Of a DNA stretch of 33,461 nucleotides, positions 11,758 through 33,461 are shown in pieces. Each line of letters begins with the position of its first letter. The stretch's first letter is position 1. The notes beneath the pieces are model-generated. The model did no database searches and was not told the DNA's origin. It saw nothing but the letters and a program-made list of their open reading frames with translations. The DNA comes from Bacteroidales bacterium (GTDB lineage Bacteria; Bacteroidota; Bacteroidia; Bacteroidales; F082), in NCBI GenBank assembly GCA_027022105.1, contig JALVZH010000220.1, forward strand, positions 37,928 through 71,388. Direction: 5' to 3'. The position numbers were made by a program, and so were the translations under genes.

Positions 11758-11954
11758 AAGTTGTTTAAAGTTAACGTGATGACAATGAGTATAAAATATT
11801 GAAAACCAGAAAATGAATTCCACTATTCCCCTCCTTGGAGAGCTTGTCCCGACTTTACGTCGGGAGGTGCAGGGGTGGGTTTGTTAAATAAGATATTCAC
11901 TTTTCTGGTTTTCAATATTTTATAATTCATCTAATGTTGAGACTTTAACAAGTT
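11758..11954. repeat. Palindromic intergenic element, copy 1
   Basis: Inner arms 11791-11818 and 11895-11923 match over 23 exact bases; the outer arms continue with lower similarity to about 11758 and 11954 (TTTAAAGTTAAC-like at the left, CTTTAACAAG at the right). The centre is a 57-bp core (11826-11882) containing CTCCTTGGAG, the hairpin TCCCGAC-TTTAC-GTCGGGA (11847-11865) and GGGGTGGGTTT. The core differs from copy 2 at one base in 57. The left outer arm matches the solo arm at 17192-17231 at 35 of 40 positions. Confidence 0.9.
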
Positions 11955-12134: not shown

Positions 12135-15100
12135 ATGAAAAATAAACTTTACTTTTTACTTTTGGTGTTTTTGTTTCAAACGGGCATTGCCGAAGCAGCT
12201 TTTGTTAATAAGACCAAAGCCCGCAGGGTCGCCCGGAACTATTACTACCTGCATACCGGAACAGCTTCCCATGAGATTTTATTTGTCAACGACTATGTTG
12301 TAGCAAACAACGGAGTACCTGTTTATTATGTTTTTAATATTTCCGGAGGAGAAGGCTTTGTAATTGTAGCCGCCGAAGACAACGTACTGCCTGTATTAGG
12401 ATTTTCCACCGAAGGAAATTATTATCCCGACAATCAGCCCCCGCAGTTTGTTTCCTGGATGAACAACTACAAAGAGCAAATTATTTATGTAAGAGAACAC
12501 CACCTGAAACCGGAAAGACTTATAAAAAGTCAATGGAGAACACTTGTGAAGAAACCGGAAAACAAGATGATGAACGGTTCGCGCAATATTGTGGGCCCGC
12601 TGCTCGAAAACATACGATGGAACCAGGATTGCCTTTACAACGATTCCTGTCCGGCGGATGCAGCAGGCCCTTGCGGACATGCCTATGCCGGGTGTGTTGC
12701 CACAGCCACGGGTATGATTATGAAATACCATTCACATCCCCATACCGGCACCGGCACCCACAGCTACTCGCATCCGGTTTACGGAACCCTTTCCGCCGAT
12801 TTTGGCAATACGGTTTACGACTGGGCAAATATGACCTTTACGGGCAGCGACGAACAGGTAGCGCAACTGCTTTATCATATTGGTGTTGCCGTTGAAATGA
12901 ATTACGGCCCCAACGGGTCGGGAGCCTATACAGGTGACGCAATTACCGCATTAACAACCTATTTTTCATATGATGCTTCCGCTTACTGGGCACAAAAATC
13001 GGGTTATTCCAATTCTACCTGGGAAAACATGGTAATGGGTGAAATAAACAACGACAGACCTCTTTTATACCGTGGCGATAATGCCGGAAGCAACGGCCAC
13101 GCATTTGTTTGCGATGGTTATGACGACAGTGGCAGCCCGGTAATGTTTCATTTCAACTGGGGATGGGATGGAATTTATAACGGATATTTCCCGTTAACCG
13201 CTCTGAATCCCGGAACCCATAATTTTACCGACAACCAGGCTGCAGGATTTAATATTATGCCTGATGCTTCTTCCGCACCTGTTGCCGATTTTACTTCCGA
13301 CGGTCCCTGTCCCTGTTCGGGAGATACGGTTAATTTCTACGATCAGTCTTCTAACGGACCCGCGTCGTGGAGCTGGACTTTTGCAGGCGGCACCCCCACC
13401 TCTTCAACCGATGAAAACCCTGCTATAGTTTACAGCAATACGGGAAGTTATAACGTTTCGTTAACGGCTTCCAATACTGCCGGCTCCGGTAGTGTTTCAA
13501 AAACAGATTACATAACCGTTTACAATTCTCCCGCAACTCCCTCATGTACCCTGTCAACACAAACGCTGGGAAACTACTGGTACGGTATCCTGAATGTAAC
13601 CCTCAACAACCTGAATCATTCCAGTGGTGATACTTATTCCGATAACGGCTGCAAAGATTTTACCTGTCACTATTCCACAACACTTACCCCGGGCACCACT
13701 TATAATATGAGCATTACTGTAAAAGTAGGCAGTTCGGGCAATGCCCACACCTATGCTTACATCGATTTTAACAACGATGGCGATTTTACCGATTCGGGAG
13801 AAAAAATTATTGATAATGAGGTGAGCAGTACGGCAAATTCAGCAAATACGTTTACCGTCTCTGTTGCCATGCCTTCCAACCCCACACTCAACCAGTTGTT
13901 GCGCATGCGGGTTGTTACCGATTATACAACCATGTCGTCGCCATGTACCAACCCCATTATCGGGCAATCCGAAGATTACGGAGTTTATTTTGAGGCGGCA
14001 CCCCCTGTCCCGGTGGCAACGGCAGCTTCCAATATTACCCAAACATCGTTTGATGCCAATTGGAACGCGGTCTCAGGTGCTACAGGATATTATCTTGATG
14101 TGGCTACCGACAATTCATTTACCAATATGGTGAGCGGATATGATAACCTGAATGTGGGTAATGTAACCACCTATTCGGTTACCGGTTTAAGCGATAATAC
14201 CGATTATTATTACAGGGTAAGGGCCTACAACAGCAACGGTACCAGCGGCAATTCAAATATAATCAGCGTTACCACGCTTCCTTATGCTCCTTCGGCACCT
14301 GTGGCTACTGCGGCCACCAACATTACCCAAACGTCATTTGATGCCAACTGGAATGCCTCTGCGGGAGCAACAGCTTATTATCTCGATGTGGCTACCGACA
14401 GTTCGTTTACCAGTATGGTAAGCGGATACGACAATTTGAATGTAGGAAATGTTACCACATACACCGTTTCGGGACTTACGGCAGGCAACACTTATTATTA
14501 CAGGGTAAGAGCAACCAATGCGGGTGGAACCAGCGGTAATTCCAATACCATTTCGGTAACAATGCTTCCCGCGACACCCGCTGCACCGGTAGCCACCGCC
14601 GCTACCAATATTACCCAAACATCATTTGATGCCAACTGGAATGCCTCAGCGGGTGCCGACGGTTATTATCTTGATGTAGCTACCGACAGCTCTTTTACCA
14701 ATATGGTGAGCGGATACGACAATCTGAATGTGGGAAATGTGACCACCTATTCCGTTACGGGACTGACGGCCAATACAGATTACTTTTACCGGGTAAGGGC
14801 ATTCAATACGGGTGGAACCAGCGGCAATTCCAATGTAATAGATGTGACAACCCTTGCCGATATACCTTCGGCTCCGGTAGCCACCGCTGCCACCAATATT
14901 TCGCAAACCACTTTCGATGCCAATTGGAATTCCGTTTCGGGAGCCGACGGATATTATCTTGATGTAGCCACCGACAGTTCATTTACCAATATGGTAAGCG
15001 GATACGATAACCTGAATGTGGGCAGTGTACTTACCTATACCGTGTCAGGGCTTACTCCCGAAACAGAATATTTTTACCGTGTAAGAGCTTATAATTCAGG

Positions 15101-15977
15101 CGGTACCAGCGGCAATTCCAACGTTATCAGTGTTACTACCCTGCCCAATAATCCCGGTGCTCCGGTGGCAACGGCAGCAACCAATATTACACAAACATCA
15201 TTTGATGCCAACTGGCAGGCTGTAAGCGGAGCTATTGGTTACTATCTTGATGTAGCTACCGACAATGGCTTTAGCAACATGGTTCCGGGATACGACAACC
15301 TGAATGTGGGCAACGTTACCACCTGGCCTGTTACAGGTCTTACGCCCAATACCAACTATTTTTACCGTGTGCGGGCCGAAAACAGCGGAGGTATCAGCGG
15401 AAACAGCAATGTAATCAGTGTGACAACCCTGCCTGCAGTCCCCCAACCTCCTTTGGCTCTCGATGCAACGGATATCACCGAAAATTCATTTACGGCTAAC
15501 TGGGAGAGTTCGTCCGGTGCCGACGGTTATTATCTCGATGTAGCTGTCGATAGTGGTTTTGGCAGTTACGTATCGGGATATGAGAACCTGAATGTGGGAA
15601 ACGCAACCTCTTACACAGTAAACGGATTGACCGCTGCAACGGAATATTTCTACCGGTTAAGGGCTTTTAATGTATCGGGTACCAGCGGAAATTCCAATAT
15701 AATTGGTTTGATAACACTTCCTGTCGGTATTTCCGAGAACAGTGCCGGTAGTGTTAAAATTTTCAGTGAGAAAGCAACAATTGTTGTAGATATAAAAATT
15801 GCAGAACCTGTTAAGGGTGAAATTTCCGTGTTCACCTTAAGGGGAGAAAAAATATCCACGACCAAAGCCGGTAAGAGCGGATTGTATCGTATTTCCCTGC
15901 CCGGTTATCACGGAATTATTGTGGTACGGGTAATTGTTAACGGACGTTATTATACAGGAAAAGTCTTTCTTATGTAA
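12135..15977 (+). CDS. Secreted C10-family (streptopain-like) cysteine protease with PKD, GEVED and six FN3 repeats
   Basis: 1280 aa. The signal peptide ends near residue 22 (GIAEAA). A Spi-type propeptide precedes the peptidase, which has the nucleophile Cys187 in AGCVATATGMIMKYHSHP, the catalytic His322 in GSNGHAFVCDGYDD, and FHFNWGWDG after it. A PKD domain (about 380-461, SWSWTFAGG...TGSYNVSLTASN) and a GEVED domain (about 515-625, AYIDFNNDGDFTDSGE, GQSEDYGVYF) follow. Six FN3 repeats have QTSFDANW-type landmarks at residues 636, 732, 828, 924, 1020 and 1116, exactly 96 residues apart. The last roughly 80 residues resemble a T9SS sorting domain lacking the usual YPNP. It likely degrades protein outside the cell. 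It ends 6 bp from the convergent gene. Confidence 0.92.
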   Translation: MKNKLYFLLLVFLFQTGIAEAAFVNKTKARRVARNYYYLHTGTASHEILFVNDYVVANNGVPVYYVFNISGGEGFVIVAAEDNVLPVLGFSTEGNYYPDNQPPQFVSWMNNYKEQIIYVREHHLKPERLIKSQWRTLVKKPENKMMNGSRNIVGPLLENIRWNQDCLYNDSCPADAAGPCGHAYAGCVATATGMIMKYHSHPHTGTGTHSYSHPVYGTLSADFGNTVYDWANMTFTGSDEQVAQLLYHIGVAVEMNYGPNGSGAYTGDAITALTTYFSYDASAYWAQKSGYSNSTWENMVMGEINNDRPLLYRGDNAGSNGHAFVCDGYDDSGSPVMFHFNWGWDGIYNGYFPLTALNPGTHNFTDNQAAGFNIMPDASSAPVADFTSDGPCPCSGDTVNFYDQSSNGPASWSWTFAGGTPTSSTDENPAIVYSNTGSYNVSLTASNTAGSGSVSKTDYITVYNSPATPSCTLSTQTLGNYWYGILNVTLNNLNHSSGDTYSDNGCKDFTCHYSTTLTPGTTYNMSITVKVGSSGNAHTYAYIDFNNDGDFTDSGEKIIDNEVSSTANSANTFTVSVAMPSNPTLNQLLRMRVVTDYTTMSSPCTNPIIGQSEDYGVYFEAAPPVPVATAASNITQTSFDANWNAVSGATGYYLDVATDNSFTNMVSGYDNLNVGNVTTYSVTGLSDNTDYYYRVRAYNSNGTSGNSNIISVTTLPYAPSAPVATAATNITQTSFDANWNASAGATAYYLDVATDSSFTSMVSGYDNLNVGNVTTYTVSGLTAGNTYYYRVRATNAGGTSGNSNTISVTMLPATPAAPVATAATNITQTSFDANWNASAGADGYYLDVATDSSFTNMVSGYDNLNVGNVTTYSVTGLTANTDYFYRVRAFNTGGTSGNSNVIDVTTLADIPSAPVATAATNISQTTFDANWNSVSGADGYYLDVATDSSFTNMVSGYDNLNVGSVLTYTVSGLTPETEYFYRVRAYNSGGTSGNSNVISVTTLPNNPGAPVATAATNITQTSFDANWQAVSGAIGYYLDVATDNGFSNMVPGYDNLNVGNVTTWPVTGLTPNTNYFYRVRAENSGGISGNSNVISVTTLPAVPQPPLALDATDITENSFTANWESSSGADGYYLDVAVDSGFGSYVSGYENLNVGNATSYTVNGLTAATEYFYRLRAFNVSGTSGNSNIIGLITLPVGISENSAGSVKIFSEKATIVVDIKIAEPVKGEISVFTLRGEKISTTKAGKSGLYRISLPGYHGIIVVRVIVNGRYYTGKVFLM
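14016..15715 (+). repeat. Six in-frame 288-bp FN3-coding repeats
   Basis: The same coding landmark recurs at 14040, 14328, 14616, 14904, 15192 and 15480, an exact 288-bp period without any indel. Units share phrases such as GYYLDVATD, VSGYDNLNVGNVTTY and GNSN. The sixth unit is the most diverged. This indicates tandem duplication within the gene. Confidence 0.92.
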
Positions 15978-18489: not shown

Positions 18490-18619
18490 AAAATCTTGAA
18501 AGCCGGAAAAGTGAATACCTTTATTCCCCTCCTTGGAGAGCTTGTCCCGACTTTACGTCGGGAGGTGTAGGGGTGGGTTTAGCATTGAATATATTCACTT
18601 TTCCAGTATTCAAGATTTT
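18490..18619. repeat. Palindromic intergenic element, copy 2
   Basis: Arms 18490-18516 and 18593-18619 form an imperfect 27-bp inverted repeat with 3 mismatches. The 57-bp core is at 18524-18580 and differs from copy 1 by one base. Weaker outer arms continue to about 18463 and 18648. It fills the gap between the susD stop (18654) and the C45-like gene start (18451), so its RNA would form a long hairpin between the two. Confidence 0.9.
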
Positions 18620-26083: not shown

Positions 26084-26122
26084 TAAATCCGCTTTCTGTT
26101 AGCTTATTTAAAAAATGTGTTG

Positions 26123-26252
26123 TAAGATGTTGGGAACCGGAAAAGTGAATATATTTATAATAAACCCACCCCTGCACTTCCCGACGTAAAGTCGGGATAA
26201 ACTCTCCAAGGAGGGGAATAATGGAACTCATTTTCCGGTTTTCAACATCTTA
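26123..26252. repeat. Palindromic intergenic element, copy 3 (core reversed)
   Basis: Arms 26123-26150 and 26226-26252 form an imperfect inverted repeat (TAAGATGTTG...ACCGGAAAA). The 57-bp core is at 26162-26218 in the opposite orientation to copies 1 and 2 and matches copy 1 at 54 of 57 positions. It sits directly upstream of the protease-fecR-susCD operon, so it is in the 5' region or leader of that operon. Confidence 0.9.
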
Positions 26253-28483: not shown

Positions 28484-31400
28484 TTAATGTTTGATTATTT
28501 TACCGCTGTAAACCTTGTTATTGAGAACCACCCTGTAAAAATAAATTCCGCTTGTATAAAGCGACAAAGGTAAAATGACTTTATGTTCATCCCCGACAGT
28601 TAACTGTTTATTAACAATATTACGGCCGTTAAAATCAAATAATTCCACCGAAACGGAACCGTTTTCTTTATCCATATTTGCGGGCAGTTCAATGTTTATA
28701 TTATCGGAAACCGGATTGGGATACACTTTTAACGAGTTATAAGAAATTCTGTTTTCTTCCATTCCGGTATAAAGCCTCAGATATTCAATAACTTCATGGA
28801 ACAGTTCCTCTGTATGCTCGCGTGTATCTATTCGTGCGGTTTCTATTGTAAACGTTACAATAATTCCGGGGAATAACTCTTTTTTAAAGGCACAATAGTA
28901 ATCGGAAAAAGTGTAATCATCGGGCCCCATGGTATAAATTCCGTCGGTTTGCGGTGCCAGAGCTATGGCATCGGCATACCAGAGGGTGGTATAAACCCAC
29001 TGCACAGGTGTCAGGGTACAAACTCCGTTTCCGGGAACAACATCCATTTGGGGAAGCCCTTCGCCACCATCATCGGCATACGACTGGGCATGGTATTCCT
29101 GAATACCCATGTAATCGTAAATAAACTGTCCGGCTGCGAGGGTATCGGGTGCCGAGCCATAAATATCGTACAGAAAATCAAGCCCCTGAACCCAGACATA
29201 TCCGCCGTTGTCAACATATTGTTTCAGCGGTGCATTAAATTTGTAATCGGACGAGTCGGAGGTATCCCAAAGGTAAAGATCGACGCCGTCGTTTCCTGTG
29301 TACCAAATCACAAGATTGTAATTTGACAGTGTTGCCGAATCGGGGAAGTCTTGTGTGTCAACGGTATTATATACATCGTAGGTATATCCCAGATTGTACA
29401 GTGTGGTGTCGATAACAAGGTAACGGTCGGGATCGTTGGCATTGTCGTTTACCAGCAATATGGTAAAATCGGAACCTGTACCCTGATTGGATATGGTAAT
29501 CATTACCGAGTCGGCAACACCCGAACCGTCGGCAGCAACGGCTTTTGCCCAAACGGTACCATTGCCGGAAGGGGTTCCGGTAGCCTGCAACAATCCGTCG
29601 GCACTAATGGCAGCCGTTGCCGTACCGGGTACCACACTCCAGATAACATCTGTATTGGGTGCAAATTGAGGAAATACATCGGCATACATTTGCAAAGTTC
29701 CGCTGTCCTGGGTAATGGTTGTGGCACCGTTTTCACCGTAAACATTAATGCTGTCCACCGTAATGGTATTGTTCAAATAATACTCGAAAAAGCTCAACCC
29801 CTGACCTATTAAGGTATCGGTATTGGCCTGTGTATCAATACGTGCGGTTTCAACGGCAAAGCTCATCAAGATACCGCCCGAAGTTTGGTATTTATACAAT
29901 CCGCATAAATAGCCCGAAAAAGTATAGGATGCCGGTCCCATGTGATAAACTCCGCGTGCGTCGTCGCCTGCAACAAGGGCATCGGCGTACCAAAGTTCGG
30001 GATAAGTCCACTGAACGGGACTTAACGAAAAAATACCGTTATACAAAACCGTATCCATTTCAGGTAATCCCGTACCTCCGTCATCTACATGCGACTGGGC
30101 ATGGTATTCGTCAATACCCATGTTGTCGTAAATAAACTGCCCTGGTGTAAAGGTGTAAGGAGCATTACCTGCCACATCGTAAAGAAAATCGAGCCCTTGC
30201 AACCATACAATACCGCCAAATTCGAGATAATAGCGCAGAGGAGCATTGAATTTGTAGTTATCCGGATCGGAAGTATCCCAAAGTTTCAAATCCACACCGT
30301 CGTTGCCGGTGTACCAGATAACAACGTCGTAGTTTATTAAAAATGCGGAGTCGGGATAGGTACCGGTGGTAACGGTATTGTATATATCGTGGGTATAACC
30401 GAGATCGGTAAGTGCCGTATCCAGTTCAAGGTAGCGGTCGGTTCCGTAATCATTGTCATTTACCAGCAAAACAAAGAAATCGTTGCCTGATCCCTGATTT
30501 GAAATGGTTATCATCACCGAATCGGCGGCACCGCCTCCGTCGGCAGCCGTCGCTTTAACCCAGACGGTACCGTTTCCGGCAGGTGTTCCGGTAGCCTGAA
30601 GCAAGCCGGTACTGCTAATGGTGGCTGTGGCCGTACCCGGAACAACACTCCAAATAACCGTGGTATCAGGGGCACAATAGGGAAATACATCGGCATACAT
30701 TTGCAAAGTTCCGTTGTTCTGTGTAATTGTGGTTGCACCATTCTCACCATAAACATAGATGCTGTCCACAAAAACCGAATCTTTTAAATATTTATCGAAA
30801 AACCTTAATCCCTGATCGATAAGCGTATCGGTATTGTCCTGGGTATCAATGCGGGCTGTTTCCACCGAAAAACTCATAACGAGTCCGCTGGCGGTGTTGT
30901 ATTTATACAATCCGCAAAAATAATCGGAAAACTGATAGCTGTCGGGGCCCATGTTATATACCCCCTTGGCGCCGGAAGCCGTTGTGAGCGCATCGGCATA
31001 CCAAAGTTCGGAATAGACCCATTGCACCGGATTAATGGAAAAGATACCGTTTAGATATACGGTATCCATCTCGGGCATTCCGGTACCTCCGTCATCGGCG
31101 TGCGATTGTGCATGATACTCGGCAACACCCATATAATCGTAAATAAATTGTCCGGACGAGAAACTGTCTGGAGCCTGTCCGAAAATATCGTAAAAATAAT
31201 CGAGACCCTGCAACCAGACAATTCCGCCGTTATCAATATAGTCAATCAAAGGTGCATTGAATTTATAATCGGAAGTATCGGACGTATCCCAAAGTTTCAG
31301 GTTAACACCATCGTTTCCGGTGTACCAGATAACAGCCTCGTACCTGTTAAGTGTAGCCGTATCGGGAAATGTATCGGTAACCACCGTATTGTAAATATCG

Positions 31401-32563
31401 TAATTGTATCCCAAATCGGTAAGGGCGGTGTCCAACTCCAAATATCTATCGGTACCGTAGCCGTTATCGTTTACCAGCAACACATGAAAATCGTAGCTGC
31501 TTCCCTGGTTTGATATTACTATTTCCATTGAGTCGGCAACACCCGACCCGTCGGAAGCTGTGGCTTTTACCCAAACATTGCCGTTTCCGGCTGGTGTTCC
31601 GGTGGCTTGCAGCAGTCCGTTGGCATCAATGGTAGCGGTAGCAGTGCCGGGCACAACACTCCATACTACCGTAGTATCGGAAGCATTGGAAGGGAAAACT
31701 TCGACCTCCATTTGTAAGGTTCCGTTATCGCTGGTTATGGTACTGTCACCGTTTTGAGAGTAAACATGCAGGCTGTCAACCAAAACATTTACCGTTACAA
31801 ATTGCTGAAAATAGGTTAATCCTTCACCAATATATGTATCGGTATTTGCCTGGGTATCTATTTTGCCCGTTTCGGCAGCGATACTTAAAATTTTACCGCT
31901 GTTTTTTTCAAGATAGACACTGTTGTAATAGTGGTCGAAAACATAACCTGCCGGTCCCATTCGGTAAATGGAATCGGCATTCGCGGTTGGTACCAGAGCA
32001 TCGGCATACCACAGGGTTGTCCAAACCCATTTCATGGGAGTAAAGGTAAATATCGGATTTCCGGGAACAACATCCAGTTGTTCCACGCCGGTGCCGCCGT
32101 CGTCAACATGCGACTGTGCATGATACTCTTCTATTCCGAGATAATCATAAACGAAATCTCCGGCTGTAAAAGTATCGGGAGCGGTTCCGTAACGGTCGTA
32201 CAGGAAATCGAGCCCCTGCAACCAAAACATTCCGCCGTTATCTATGTAGCTTTTGATGTGCGGATTGTCGGAATCGGTTCCGTTCCAAAACCAGAGCCCC
32301 ACACCGTCGTTGCCGGTGTACCAAATTACCAAATCGAAACCCGACATATAAGTGGAATCGGGGCTGGAACCGAGGTTCTCCGCATCGTAAAGTGTATAGG
32401 TATAACCATTGTTGGTAATGGCATTTTCAATGGGTGTAATCCGCTCGGGATTGGCACTGTTGTCGTTTACAAGCAAAATCGACATTTGTCCGTACACTCC
32501 GGAATTCATCCCGAATAAGACAATCATTGTGATAATGAATGCATAATGTAATTTTTTAAACAT
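28484..32563 (-). CDS. Large T9SS protein with four GATase/ThuA-like modules and three Ig-like domains
   Basis: 1359 aa. The signal peptide (about 1-25, ending SGVYGQ) is followed by modules starting near residues 29, 358, 696 and 1032, each with ILLVNDN or VLLVNDN, VIWYTGNDGV, a 'GG.VW.QGLDFLYD'-like turn, 'YHAQSHxDDGGTG' and 'ETARIDTQxNTDT'. Between them are three Big_2-like Ig domains (TLQMYADVFP, VVPGTATATI, GNGTVWVKATAADG). The C-terminal 86 residues are a type A T9SS domain (KVYPNPVSDNINI...GIYFYRVVLNN). Two successive repeat periods are exactly 1011 bp. No Cys occupies the GATase elbow. It is probably a surface binding or structural protein; the ligand is unknown. The short gap to the 687-aa paralogue suggests one transcript. 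Confidence 0.83.
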   Translation of the reverse strand: MFKKLHYAFIITMIVLFGMNSGVYGQMSILLVNDNSANPERITPIENAITNNGYTYTLYDAENLGSSPDSTYMSGFDLVIWYTGNDGVGLWFWNGTDSDNPHIKSYIDNGGMFWLQGLDFLYDRYGTAPDTFTAGDFVYDYLGIEEYHAQSHVDDGGTGVEQLDVVPGNPIFTFTPMKWVWTTLWYADALVPTANADSIYRMGPAGYVFDHYYNSVYLEKNSGKILSIAAETGKIDTQANTDTYIGEGLTYFQQFVTVNVLVDSLHVYSQNGDSTITSDNGTLQMEVEVFPSNASDTTVVWSVVPGTATATIDANGLLQATGTPAGNGNVWVKATASDGSGVADSMEIVISNQGSSYDFHVLLVNDNGYGTDRYLELDTALTDLGYNYDIYNTVVTDTFPDTATLNRYEAVIWYTGNDGVNLKLWDTSDTSDYKFNAPLIDYIDNGGIVWLQGLDYFYDIFGQAPDSFSSGQFIYDYMGVAEYHAQSHADDGGTGMPEMDTVYLNGIFSINPVQWVYSELWYADALTTASGAKGVYNMGPDSYQFSDYFCGLYKYNTASGLVMSFSVETARIDTQDNTDTLIDQGLRFFDKYLKDSVFVDSIYVYGENGATTITQNNGTLQMYADVFPYCAPDTTVIWSVVPGTATATISSTGLLQATGTPAGNGTVWVKATAADGGGAADSVMITISNQGSGNDFFVLLVNDNDYGTDRYLELDTALTDLGYTHDIYNTVTTGTYPDSAFLINYDVVIWYTGNDGVDLKLWDTSDPDNYKFNAPLRYYLEFGGIVWLQGLDFLYDVAGNAPYTFTPGQFIYDNMGIDEYHAQSHVDDGGTGLPEMDTVLYNGIFSLSPVQWTYPELWYADALVAGDDARGVYHMGPASYTFSGYLCGLYKYQTSGGILMSFAVETARIDTQANTDTLIGQGLSFFEYYLNNTITVDSINVYGENGATTITQDSGTLQMYADVFPQFAPNTDVIWSVVPGTATAAISADGLLQATGTPSGNGTVWAKAVAADGSGVADSVMITISNQGTGSDFTILLVNDNANDPDRYLVIDTTLYNLGYTYDVYNTVDTQDFPDSATLSNYNLVIWYTGNDGVDLYLWDTSDSSDYKFNAPLKQYVDNGGYVWVQGLDFLYDIYGSAPDTLAAGQFIYDYMGIQEYHAQSYADDGGEGLPQMDVVPGNGVCTLTPVQWVYTTLWYADAIALAPQTDGIYTMGPDDYTFSDYYCAFKKELFPGIIVTFTIETARIDTREHTEELFHEVIEYLRLYTGMEENRISYNSLKVYPNPVSDNINIELPANMDKENGSVSVELFDFNGRNIVNKQLTVGDEHKVILPLSLYTSGIYFYRVVLNNKVYSGKIIKH
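29449..31480 (-). repeat. In-gene 1011-bp module repeats
   Basis: The conserved TTACCAGCAA landmark (on + strand) starts at 29449, 30460 and 31471, two periods of exactly 1011 bp (337 codons). The equivalent site of the first module starts at 32467, 996 bp away. Each unit is one GATase-like module plus one Ig-like domain. Differences between units look largely synonymous, so the repeats are old enough to diverge but selected at protein level. Confidence 0.88.
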
Positions 32564-32654: not shown

Positions 32655-32802
32655 GGAGTTATGAAAATGTATAACCCACCCCTACCTCCCGACGTAAAGT
32701 CGGGACAGGCTCTCCAAGGAGGGGAATTTCCGTTTCCAATATAGATTCTACTCATATTTAACACTTTTCATCCATTTAACGGTTATGTTTTGGTTAACGG
32801 TA
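32655..32802. repeat. Palindromic element, copy 4, with shared flanking arm
   Basis: The core (32672-32726, 55 bp, same orientation as copy 3) has the CCCGAC-GTCGGG hairpin and lacks two bases relative to the others. The left arm before it (TATTGGAGTTATGAAAA) and the right arm after it are degenerate. The right arm (32727-32802) resembles the copy 1 outer arm and ends in TTATGTTTTGGTTAACGGTA (32783-32802), found again exactly at 33441-33460. Confidence 0.8.
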
Positions 32803-32808
32803 CCCATC

Positions 32809-33379
32809 TCCCCTCCTTGGAGGGGATTAAGGGGTGGGTTTACTATGTTTTTCATTTTCAAAATTTTCAATCCAGCCCTCAATTGTTCTCAAAACATTTC
32901 TCATATCTTTTCTTACTTCTCTGTCATCAAACCGTAAAAACCGAACTCCCAATTTTTCCAAACGTTTTTGTCTTTCTAAATCATTTACAATAACATCTTC
33001 AATATCATGTGATATACCGTCTATTTCTATGGCAAGTTGTAAATCTTTACAATAAAAATCGACAATGTAATTATCAATCGGGCGTTGCCTGTCAAAATCA
33101 TATCCTTTCATTTTTTTGTTTTTCAGTTCATTCCAAAGAAGAATCTCAGCAAAAGTCATGTTCTTTCGTAGTGCTTTCGCAAGTGGTTTAAGTTTTGGGT
33201 TGTATGGTATGATTTTTCTACGCATTAATATTTTTTTAAACGTTTTTTCGTAATATAGTGTATAACCCTTATTGTCAAATCATACAGCCTGCTCATTACT
33301 TTAGTTATTCTGTTTTTTCTAAATCTTCATAGTTAAATGCCATTGTTTAACCCACCCCTCCGCCCCTCCGAGGAGGGGA
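32809..33379 (-). mobile_element. Putative 571-bp nuclease-carrying element with about 35-bp inverted ends
   Basis: Bases 32809-32843 and the reverse complement of 33345-33379 both read TCCCCTCC-T-[T/C]-GGAGGGG, a short variable stretch, then GGGGTGGGTT. These ends are the same sequence that forms the core of the palindromic elements elsewhere in the window. Between them lies one gene, a DUF559/Vsr-like nuclease. A 20-bp exact direct repeat (32783-32802 and 33441-33460), within about 80 bp of weaker similarity, lies outside each end. No clear target-site duplication is visible. Confidence 0.6.
32827..33225 (-). CDS. DUF559 / Vsr-like PD-(D/E)XK endonuclease domain protein
   Basis: 132 aa. 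The N-terminus has the family pattern KPLAKALRKNMTFAEILLWNELKNK and GYDFDRQRPIDNYIVDFYC. The restriction-endonuclease-like core carries Asp56 (VDFYC), Glu67 and Asp69 (AIEIDG), fitting a D...ExD metal site, followed by NDLERQKRLEKLGVRFLRF and the EV helix. Its length is normal for the family. The last residues KPTP and the stop are encoded by the GGGGTGGGTTT part of the inverted repeat, so the gene and repeat are fused. The function of DUF559 proteins is not established; DNA nicking or mobilisation of the repeats is a hypothesis. Confidence 0.85.
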   Translation of the reverse strand: MRRKIIPYNPKLKPLAKALRKNMTFAEILLWNELKNKKMKGYDFDRQRPIDNYIVDFYCKDLQLAIEIDGISHDIEDVIVNDLERQKRLEKLGVRFLRFDDREVRKDMRNVLRTIEGWIENFENEKHSKPTP

Positions 33380-33461
33380 ACTGTTTCCGTTTTCAGTTAA
33401 ATTTTATTCTCATTTTGTACAATTTCATTCCATTAAACGTTTATGTTTTGGTTAACGGTAA
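33379..33461. repeat. Flanking arm, second copy, running off the window
   Basis: This segment repeats 32727-32802 imperfectly in the same orientation, ending with the exact 20-bp TTATGTTTTGGTTAACGGTA at 33441-33460. Its reverse complement also resembles the outer arm of the palindromic elements (AATGAGAATAAAAT, GAAAACGGAAA). It continues beyond the window, so its full extent is unknown. Confidence 0.75.

Follow-up and report, generated by a model that had tools for sequence, protein, structure and literature searches.

A DUF559 nuclease gene between inverted triplex-motif repeats points to a possible class of small bacterial mobile elements

What is a gene for a predicted nuclease doing between inverted copies of a palindrome that is dispersed through the rest of its genome? 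The question is raised by one end of the 33,461-nt stretch of Bacteroidales DNA analyzed here (the window), which carries a 132-aa ORF assigned to DUF559, a widespread domain of unknown function (Pfam PF04480, E 6.8e-30). The original prediction drew a parallel with RAYT/REPIN pairs, with a PD-(D/E)XK enzyme in place of the Y1 transposase. We find that the flanking layout agrees with this parallel, and a Pfam scan of the ORF returns DUF559 and MTES_1575 only, with no Y1 tyrosine transposase domain. The ORF is the single DUF559 match in the host genome (3.88 Mb).

The gene is bounded, as predicted, by two inward-pointing units of a dispersed core (Table 1). Each unit comprises a hairpin (p-p') and, after it, a G-rich block (q) mirroring p', and in the window has the form CCCCTCC-nn-GGAGGGG-(3-5 nt)-GGGGTGG, at 32808-32837 and, on the opposite strand, 33352-33379. 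In the left arm, these blocks are CCCCTCC (32810-32816), GGAGGGG (32819-32825), and GGGGTGGG (32831-32838), and the last codons and stop of the DUF559 ORF fall within the unit. The host genome holds 151 matches of the pattern CCCCTCCN{8,38}GGGGTGGGTT and 0 of a reversed control pattern. These copies form a short and a long class, the latter with an extra CCCGAC/GTCGGG hairpin. The CCCGAC-TTTAC-GTCGGG hairpin had been assigned to the shared core; this part of the prediction is rejected, since the hairpin is missing from both arms flanking DUF559 and belongs instead to the long copies.

In the host genome, the arms are part of a longer element of the form q'p'p - ~85-bp linker - pp'q, so that DUF559 lies between two direct-orientation copies of it. 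A 70-bp direct repeat (32733-32802 / 33391-33460) brackets the gene, and the linker of the left copy, element B, is multicopy in the host genome. The far end of the right copy is broken by an assembly N gap just past the window end (L001, about 2085-2094); as this gap lies inside the next repeat unit, the repeat array around the gene is incomplete.

Table 1. Positions of the DUF559 gene and of the repeat units and linkers in the window.
Feature	Position	Strand	Basis or remark
Solo unit, core 11828-11881, within outer hairpin (arms 11790-11813 / 11901-11924)	11790..11924	+	
Solo unit, core 18526-18579, within outer hairpin	18490..18619	+	
Solo unit, core 26163-26216, within outer hairpin	26121..26252	-	
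Long-class unit with inserted CCCGAC/GTCGGG hairpin; outer end of left element B	32673..32724	-	
Linker of element B; direct repeat of the stretch right of the gene	32725..32809	.	76% over 70 nt
Left triplex-motif unit p-p'-q, pointing into the DUF559 gene	32808..32840	+	Triplex scan, pattern match
DUF559 (PD-(D/E)XK, Vsr-like) nuclease gene	32827..33225	-	Pfam, conserved active site, model
Right triplex-motif unit p-p'-q, pointing into the DUF559 gene	33349..33379	-	Triplex scan, pattern match
Second linker copy, reaching the window end	33380..33461	.	Next unit has assembly N gap

Other searches of the window gave little. Rfam returned no match at E <= 1, and a reading of the window as a defense system was dropped because PADLOC gave two weak matches only. 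A search of a phage collection matched 2 records, at 36-41% identity. Two large repetitive genes also lie in the window: the one at 28484-32563 encodes a protein with a Por_Secre_tail domain and has internal repeats of ~1011 bp, and the ORF at 12135-15977 contains tandem repeats of 288 bp.

We find that the mirror relation between q and p' is a rule of these repeats. We took all perfect 8-bp pyrimidine/purine hairpins around 104 DUF559 loci (125 sides from 37 loci, where one hairpin may count on both strands). A perfect 8/8 mirror of p' was present on 43/125 sides, compared with 11 in the parallel sense and 2 in shuffled sequence. The rule is kept where the blocks vary (GGAGGGG with GGGGTGG, AGAGGGG with GGGGTGTG, and GGGAGGG with GGGAGGGG). 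Judged from its sequence, the repeat thus has the architecture of the BoxC/PIT “intrastrand triplex motif” (TM) of Escherichia coli: a C-rich stem, a loop, a complementary G-rich stem, a second loop, and a mirror-related G-rich third strand. E. coli BoxC/PIT/TM repeats are described with the same order of parts and are likewise dispersed and variable among strains (PMC4666352). The consensus of the TMECO class has 9-nt stems (CCCTCNCCC...) and no known enzyme partner (PMC4666352), whereas the window units have 7-nt stems, another sequence, and DUF559 as neighbor; the window repeat is therefore a member of the TM architecture and not of the TMECO class.

Repeats of this kind have been known from E. 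coli since the 1990s, and the account of them in PMC4666352 gives neither an enzyme nor a route of spreading. Holder et al. (2015, PMC4666352) report 3610 TMECO copies in 262 proteobacterial genomes, state that mobility genes were never found near TMECO sites, and describe finding no support for a stable triplex in vivo. The main text of that paper contains neither the word “endonuclease” nor “ycjD”.

Many solo units also sit within longer hairpins. Among 35 host-genome copies that we read, the outer arms pair with a score of 12 or more in 27, and in 22 of these 27, an arm pairs best with its own partner when compared with the arms of the other 26. Across the solo units of the window and of L002-L031, the arms of the outer hairpin vary among copies and are complementary within each copy. 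Such terminator-like hairpins, with arms that pair within the copy, are what one would expect if TMs served a stand-alone DUF559 gene as regulators or terminators and travelled with it by ordinary horizontal transfer, with nothing mobile about them. We regard this explanation as very improbable: the host genome has 151 repeat matches and one DUF559 gene, and in-frame insertions into proteins (see below) also speak against it.

DUF559 loci generally carry the repeat. From a scan of one genome per species (84,980 species), we took the best 80 of 400 relatives of the window protein. These are mostly from Bacteroidota and, by record names, also include Brocadiaceae, Scalindua, Neomarinimicrobiota, Parcubacteria, Paceibacterota, Chloroflexi, Ignavibacteria, and Chlorobiota. 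For 74 of these 80 loci (6 with short flanks were left out), inverted flanks scoring at least 12 were present in 58, compared with 10/444 random placements in the same loci; for a score of at least 14, the counts were 48/74 and 1/444. By the triplex rule, which was applied to 69 of the best 80 loci (11 with incomplete flanks were left out), a TM lies within 250 bp of DUF559 in 61/69 loci but of only 7/198 control ORFs in the same loci, and TMs lie on both sides of 45/69 DUF559 genes compared with 1/198 control ORFs. The TM scan found none within 250 bp in 8 of the 69. The inward layout is the commonest, with 24 pure cases of 69 compared with 2 pure outward and 6 and 1 in the two direct orientations; the remaining loci that have a TM are one-sided or mixed.

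As the best 80 had been picked by similarity to the window protein, distant relatives were sampled too: 24 of 34 matching records of a plasmid collection (some of them chromosome-sized), from Alpha-, Beta-, and Gammaproteobacteria, Cyanobacteriota, and Deinococcota. Here, a unit lies within 300 bp in 19/24 loci, inverted flanks score at least 14 in 14/24 (2/144 placements), and a TM or strong inverted ends are present in 23/24, leaving 1/24 with neither. The inverted arms of the Sinorhizobium meliloti locus reach a score of 104 (over 100 bp). On Deinococcus plasmids, DUF559 genes are located within hpa and paa catabolic gene clusters (L213, L215, and L217). The partnership of DUF559 and TMs thus reaches Proteobacteria, Cyanobacteria, and Deinococcota.

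Closer samples agree. Among 20 loci from four multi-copy Bacteroidota genomes, 12 score at least 12 (0/120 placements). Among 31 loci of the host genome and near relatives, compared over 350-bp flanks, 21 score at least 12 and 10 score below it (shuffles 1/93). The exact core of the window occurs in only a few of these 31, so repeat sequences differ among genomes. The original prediction would have failed if DUF559 homologs generally lacked the repeats; most carry a TM or inverted ends, and repeats are far commoner beside DUF559 than beside control genes. In the window itself, the ungapped inverted flank match scores 14.5, which 0/500 random placements in the window reach; with gaps allowed, 3/500 placements reach the window's score. 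The gapped control is the one result that leans toward a chance juxtaposition in a repeat-rich genome. For the DUF559 family, this reading is contradicted by the enrichment of inverted flanks (48/74 vs. 1/444) and of TMs (61/69 vs. 7/198) over controls and by the distant and multi-copy loci, and we give it practically no weight.

If the enzyme and the repeats belong together, repeat number might follow the presence of the gene. We counted the pattern CCCCN{3,7}CCYCYCCN{2,5}GGRGRGG, which covers one unit class only, in 295 genomes besides the host and scored DUF559 as strong at E <= 1e-15. At least 2 matches were present in 49/125 genomes with strong DUF559 compared with 14/170 others (Fisher, P = 1.6e-10), and at least 8 in 21/125 compared with 4/170 (P = 1.1e-5); the remaining 76/125 genomes with strong DUF559 have fewer than 2 matches of this one class. 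Since cassettes themselves add pattern matches, the higher thresholds are the fairer test. The reversed control pattern matches in a few of the Bacteroidota genomes. Among the 149 nearest genomes, host included, at least 2 matches occur in 25/58 with DUF559 (E below 1e-9) and in 6/91 without. When DUF559 was shuffled within families, 1, 0, and 1 of 5000 shuffles reached the observed value (thresholds 1, 2, and 4); within genera, 532, 491, and 131 of 5000 did so, and the within-genus association is thus weak. Genomes with the enzyme thus have more repeats, as expected from the prediction, although this relation is confounded by ancestry.

The same holds for E. coli. The K-12 gene ycjD (354 nt), located between sapF and fabI, belongs to DUF559 and has triplex units 3' of it; a query of ycjD plus these units is covered to at least 80% in 3364/5426 genomes. 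For 59 of 60 rows spread down this ranking (one plasmid-sized row was left out), we counted matching places, that is, BLAST matches to the K-12 ycjD stretch, not units verified singly. Genomes with ycjD (n = 37) have 14-31 such places (median 22), compared with 2-23 (median 6.5) in those without it (n = 22; Mann-Whitney, P = 4e-9; P = 4e-8 when two places are subtracted for the ycjD locus). This comparison is confounded by ancestry. According to PMC12817139, ycjD marks phylogroups A, B1, and C (plus ST69 and ST182), and B2, D, E, F, and G otherwise hold the eef operon at its place. By the counts of Holder et al., strain 55989 has 29 motifs and IHE3034 a single one (PMC4666352). Depending on the E. 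coli lineage, the place between sapF and fabI is taken by ycjD or by an RND efflux operon (L200-L202). No clean ycjD empty site was obtained in E. coli, where two strains without ycjD have the efflux operon beside fabI, and differences among ycjD-carrying strains look like deletion or slippage.

The acidic active site of the window protein is conserved: E27, D56, E67, D69, G70, H73, and D82 are each present in at least 100 of 101 sequences of the DUF559 alignment (D56, E67, and H73 in 101/101 and D69 in 100/101). By these sequence features, it can be placed in the DUF559 / PD-(D/E)XK family. Its predicted structure (pLDDT 91) is closest to 3hrl of Neisseria gonorrhoeae, followed by the homing endonuclease I-Bth0305I (PDB 3r3p; E 1.4e-3, probability 1.00), Vsr (0.96), and TnsA (0.87); all fold matches other than 3hrl have E above 0.001. 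Further matches of the model (ranks 4-6, probability 1.00, E 0.01-0.02) are to mitoribosomal proteins of Toxoplasma and Tetrahymena, which are perhaps related nuclease-fold domains. The likeness to I-Bth0305I suggested by the model would lie in the fold and in being a nuclease of a mobile element; to our knowledge, I-Bth0305I is not flanked by dispersed palindromes. YcjD has been placed in the PD-(D/E)XK superfamily, with its similarity to Vsr noted (PMC1189080). Vsr and Caulobacter VsrA are nucleases of the same DUF559 / PD-(D/E)XK kind, and VsrA is responsible for the SOS response in a methylase mutant (PMC12907096), so at least one DUF559 member seems able to damage DNA in vivo. The role proposed for VsrA is T:G mismatch repair, described without reference to repeats (PMC12907096).

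DUF559 domains also occur inside coding genes. By Pfam assignment of the hosts, they interrupt leucyl-tRNA synthetase (LeuRS; L054), HsdR (L066 and L136), chorismate synthase (L096), and Eco57I-type methyltransferases (L172 and L211). One lies near the C-terminus of an N6/N4 methyltransferase (L180), and others are C-terminal fusions to a ThiE-type protein (L071) and a GNAT protein (L189). Most such hosts contain repeat-like stretches translated in frame (e.g., KVLPFGEDLGGV, TPPHPSPKGREQ, and PTPNPSQEG). The palindromic elements of Rickettsia are likewise found in frame inside protein genes, and we know of no enzyme for them. Restriction and methylation genes (HsdR, Eco57I-type, N6/N4 methyltransferase, and the PglX neighborhood) recur as hosts or neighbors (L066, L069, L136, L172, L179, L180, L188, L205, L207, and L211). 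A second LeuRS insertion site, after GRSSFVYRVN or similar, holds degenerate DUF559 domains (L175-L178 and L185); all five are without EIDG..H (e.g., EVRRVQ), and are thus probably catalytically dead and fixed.

Enzyme and repeat appear to be matched. Loci with more similar proteins tend to have more similar units: across 67 loci, the two identities are correlated (Mantel r 0.45, P = 0.0005), as they are without Mucilaginibacter-type loci (n = 39, r 0.34, P = 0.0005); host relatedness contributes to this correlation. Two congeneric genomes with several DUF559 genes each are instructive. Their cross-species pairs (80%, 78%, and 61% identical) share the same repeat type, and their paralogs (41-54% identical) have at least three repeat types between them, with a CCCCCTT-type common to three of six in one genome. 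The 78% pair also shares its flank and so was inherited in place.

The main sceptical alternative is that TMs are fragile recombination hot spots that shuffle their neighbors, with DUF559 a Vsr-like repair or restriction accessory carried along by chance. It could draw on the local instability that Holder et al. (2015, PMC4666352) tie to TMs, on the Vsr-like action and DNA-damage response of Caulobacter VsrA (PMC12907096), and on the restriction or methylation genes among the hosts. However, fragile sites of this kind would not explain why TMs are rare beside control genes of the same loci (7/198), why enzyme and repeat similarity correlate, why the inward inverted layout is the commonest (24 pure cases of 69), or why cassettes with readable edges contain DUF559 as their single gene. 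We therefore consider such hitchhiking unlikely.

Cassette edges coincide with the outer TMs. Genome G252 has two DUF559 genes, 93% identical, at two sites. A ~490-bp block common to both loci is delimited by the outer edges of the two TMs (AAA.GTCCCCTCTC...GAGAGGGGACTTT); beyond it, the loci share only further repeat copies. No target duplication was seen by eye at these two copies. In comparisons with two other species of the genus, the edges agree within 1-3 bp (1147-1633, 1149-1636, and 1148-1634). One locus of this species comparison, L253, has a further stretch that is 65% similar to L229 but lies at a different distance. As L253 and L254 have a flank in common, the two were counted as a single site. 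Near-identical copies within a genome are rare: the four multi-copy genomes have one 93% pair, and the rest are 40-65% identical. The window cassette recurs in four congeneric genomes (G002, G004, G005, and G007), with the inward TM-DUF559-TM layout in 4/4 by eye; in 3/4, the match stops where the downstream unit has its outer edge. Outside the cassette, the window shares only 31-33-nt repeat matches with these genomes (E <= 1e-8); about 575 bp are common to G002 and G004. A cassette position fixed across relatives would have counted against mobility; instead, sites differ, although certain copies (the LeuRS ones among them) are inherited in place.

Two sites reveal presence and absence within genera. 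At the LeuRS site, 16/18 searched genomes were readable: 3 are empty (G053, G020, and G137), 3 have palindromes only (G019, G038, and G012), and 10 have DUF559. Filled sites coexist with empty or palindrome-only sites in each of five genera (g2, g6, g9, g10, and g15). The resident nucleases look alike and are thus read as the outcome of few events with later loss; the LeuRS copies and several others are vertically inherited. At an intergenic site of another genus (around L235), we scored 16/20 regions, leaving out L261 (the reference's own), L268, L274, and L280. Six regions have one DUF559 type with 3-5 units, two have an inverted unit pair only, one has other sequence plus a pair, three short regions have neither, and four have other sequence with no unit by scan. 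The sharp alignment edges around L235 coincide with the conserved flanking genes and were not used as insertion boundaries. The empty sites called for by the original prediction are thus present within genera, but no recent empty site with near-identical flanks, as needed for exact junctions, was found among the genomes compared. Its suggestion of MITE-like internal-deletion derivatives also gains substance: the palindromes of G012 LeuRS are accompanied by a stretch that looks like a DUF559 C-terminal remnant, and a truncated DUF559 adjoins a unit elsewhere in the host genome (G000:C312).

These sites bear on the main mechanistic rival, homing into existing units, whereby DUF559 cuts a gene-less TM or TM-like site, repair of the break from a DUF559-carrying copy, with the TM arms as homology, inserts the gene, and the TMs spread by other means. 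The predicted fold is compatible with such a role, as I-Bth0305I and Vsr are its closest matches after 3hrl, and at the intergenic site, some relatives have TM pairs where others have DUF559. At L174, a weak DUF559-like match (E 3.9e-4) is followed in frame by an intein-end-like stretch (VAHNC), an intein-like frame hinting at a homing role for DUF559 relatives. Yet units occur at sites that are TM-less in relatives (G053, G020, and G137 at LeuRS; G482, G479, and G493 at the intergenic site), unless they were lost there, and homology stops at the outer TM edges with different flanks beyond, which homing at homologous sites alone would not give. We consider homing somewhat unlikely.

The REPIN-like reading of the nuclease and its palindromes is supported overall. 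The comparisons show the association of DUF559 with TMs, the layout and borders of the unit, its varied sites in related genomes, its presence or absence within genera, its in-frame insertions, a conserved active site, and the correlation of enzyme and repeat types; that DUF559 itself moves the repeats is inferred. TM-DUF559-TM is probably a small mobile element, autonomous in the window, in which DUF559 acts on TMs, and solo or paired TMs are its non-autonomous or decayed relatives. The TM would be a REP-like unit whose G-rich strand q could fold back on the p/p' hairpin as a purine-motif triplex. DUF559 might recognize the TM when extruded as a hairpin or triplex, for instance in the lagging-strand template, and nick at its outer edge; the freed or broken end could then be copied or joined elsewhere without a recognizable target duplication. 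Insertion would often be at other hairpins or in flexible protein loops. Internal deletion would leave TM pairs or single TMs, serving as non-autonomous substrates or persisting as decayed relatives of TM-DUF559-TM.

REP/REPIN-RAYT systems likewise have a gene between two inverted palindromic units, many dispersed copies, several agreeing enzyme-repeat types, and arrays of alternating units at some loci (Nunvar et al. 2010, PMC2817692). The first of these features is present in the window, and 45/69 DUF559 loci have units on both sides. They differ in that the RAYT enzyme is a Y1 transposase and DUF559 a PD-(D/E)XK Vsr-like nuclease, and in that the DUF559 unit has a third strand besides its hairpin and enters coding genes in frame. 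RAYT repeats have a GT(A/G)G head directly before the palindrome; the q block of the window units contains GTGG, 3-5 nt away from the hairpin. The original prediction named no described system of this kind. The repeat class, the nuclease fold, and the REP/RAYT analogy are in fact already known, the repeat belonging to the described BoxC/PIT/TM class, but the DUF559-TM partnership appears new: searches of the open literature for DUF559, ycjD, intrastrand triplexes, and Vsr with mobile elements listed no paper linking DUF559 to repeats (subscription papers and preprints were outside their scope).

We see even chances that DUF559 nucleases, YcjD included, are the missing enzymes of BoxC/PIT/triplex dissemination across Bacteria and that TM-DUF559-TM is a mobile-element class of its own. 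If so, the element would consist of a Vsr-like nuclease with triplex-forming ends, in autonomous and non-autonomous forms, with several enzyme-repeat specificities per genome and the capacity to insert in frame into essential genes. Genome parasites of the REP/RAYT kind would then have a second, unrelated enzyme class, and there would be an explanation for the palindromes inserted in frame into leucyl-tRNA synthetase and other essential proteins. The link between DUF559 and TMs offers both an orphan repeat and an orphan domain a hypothesis that is testable in K-12.
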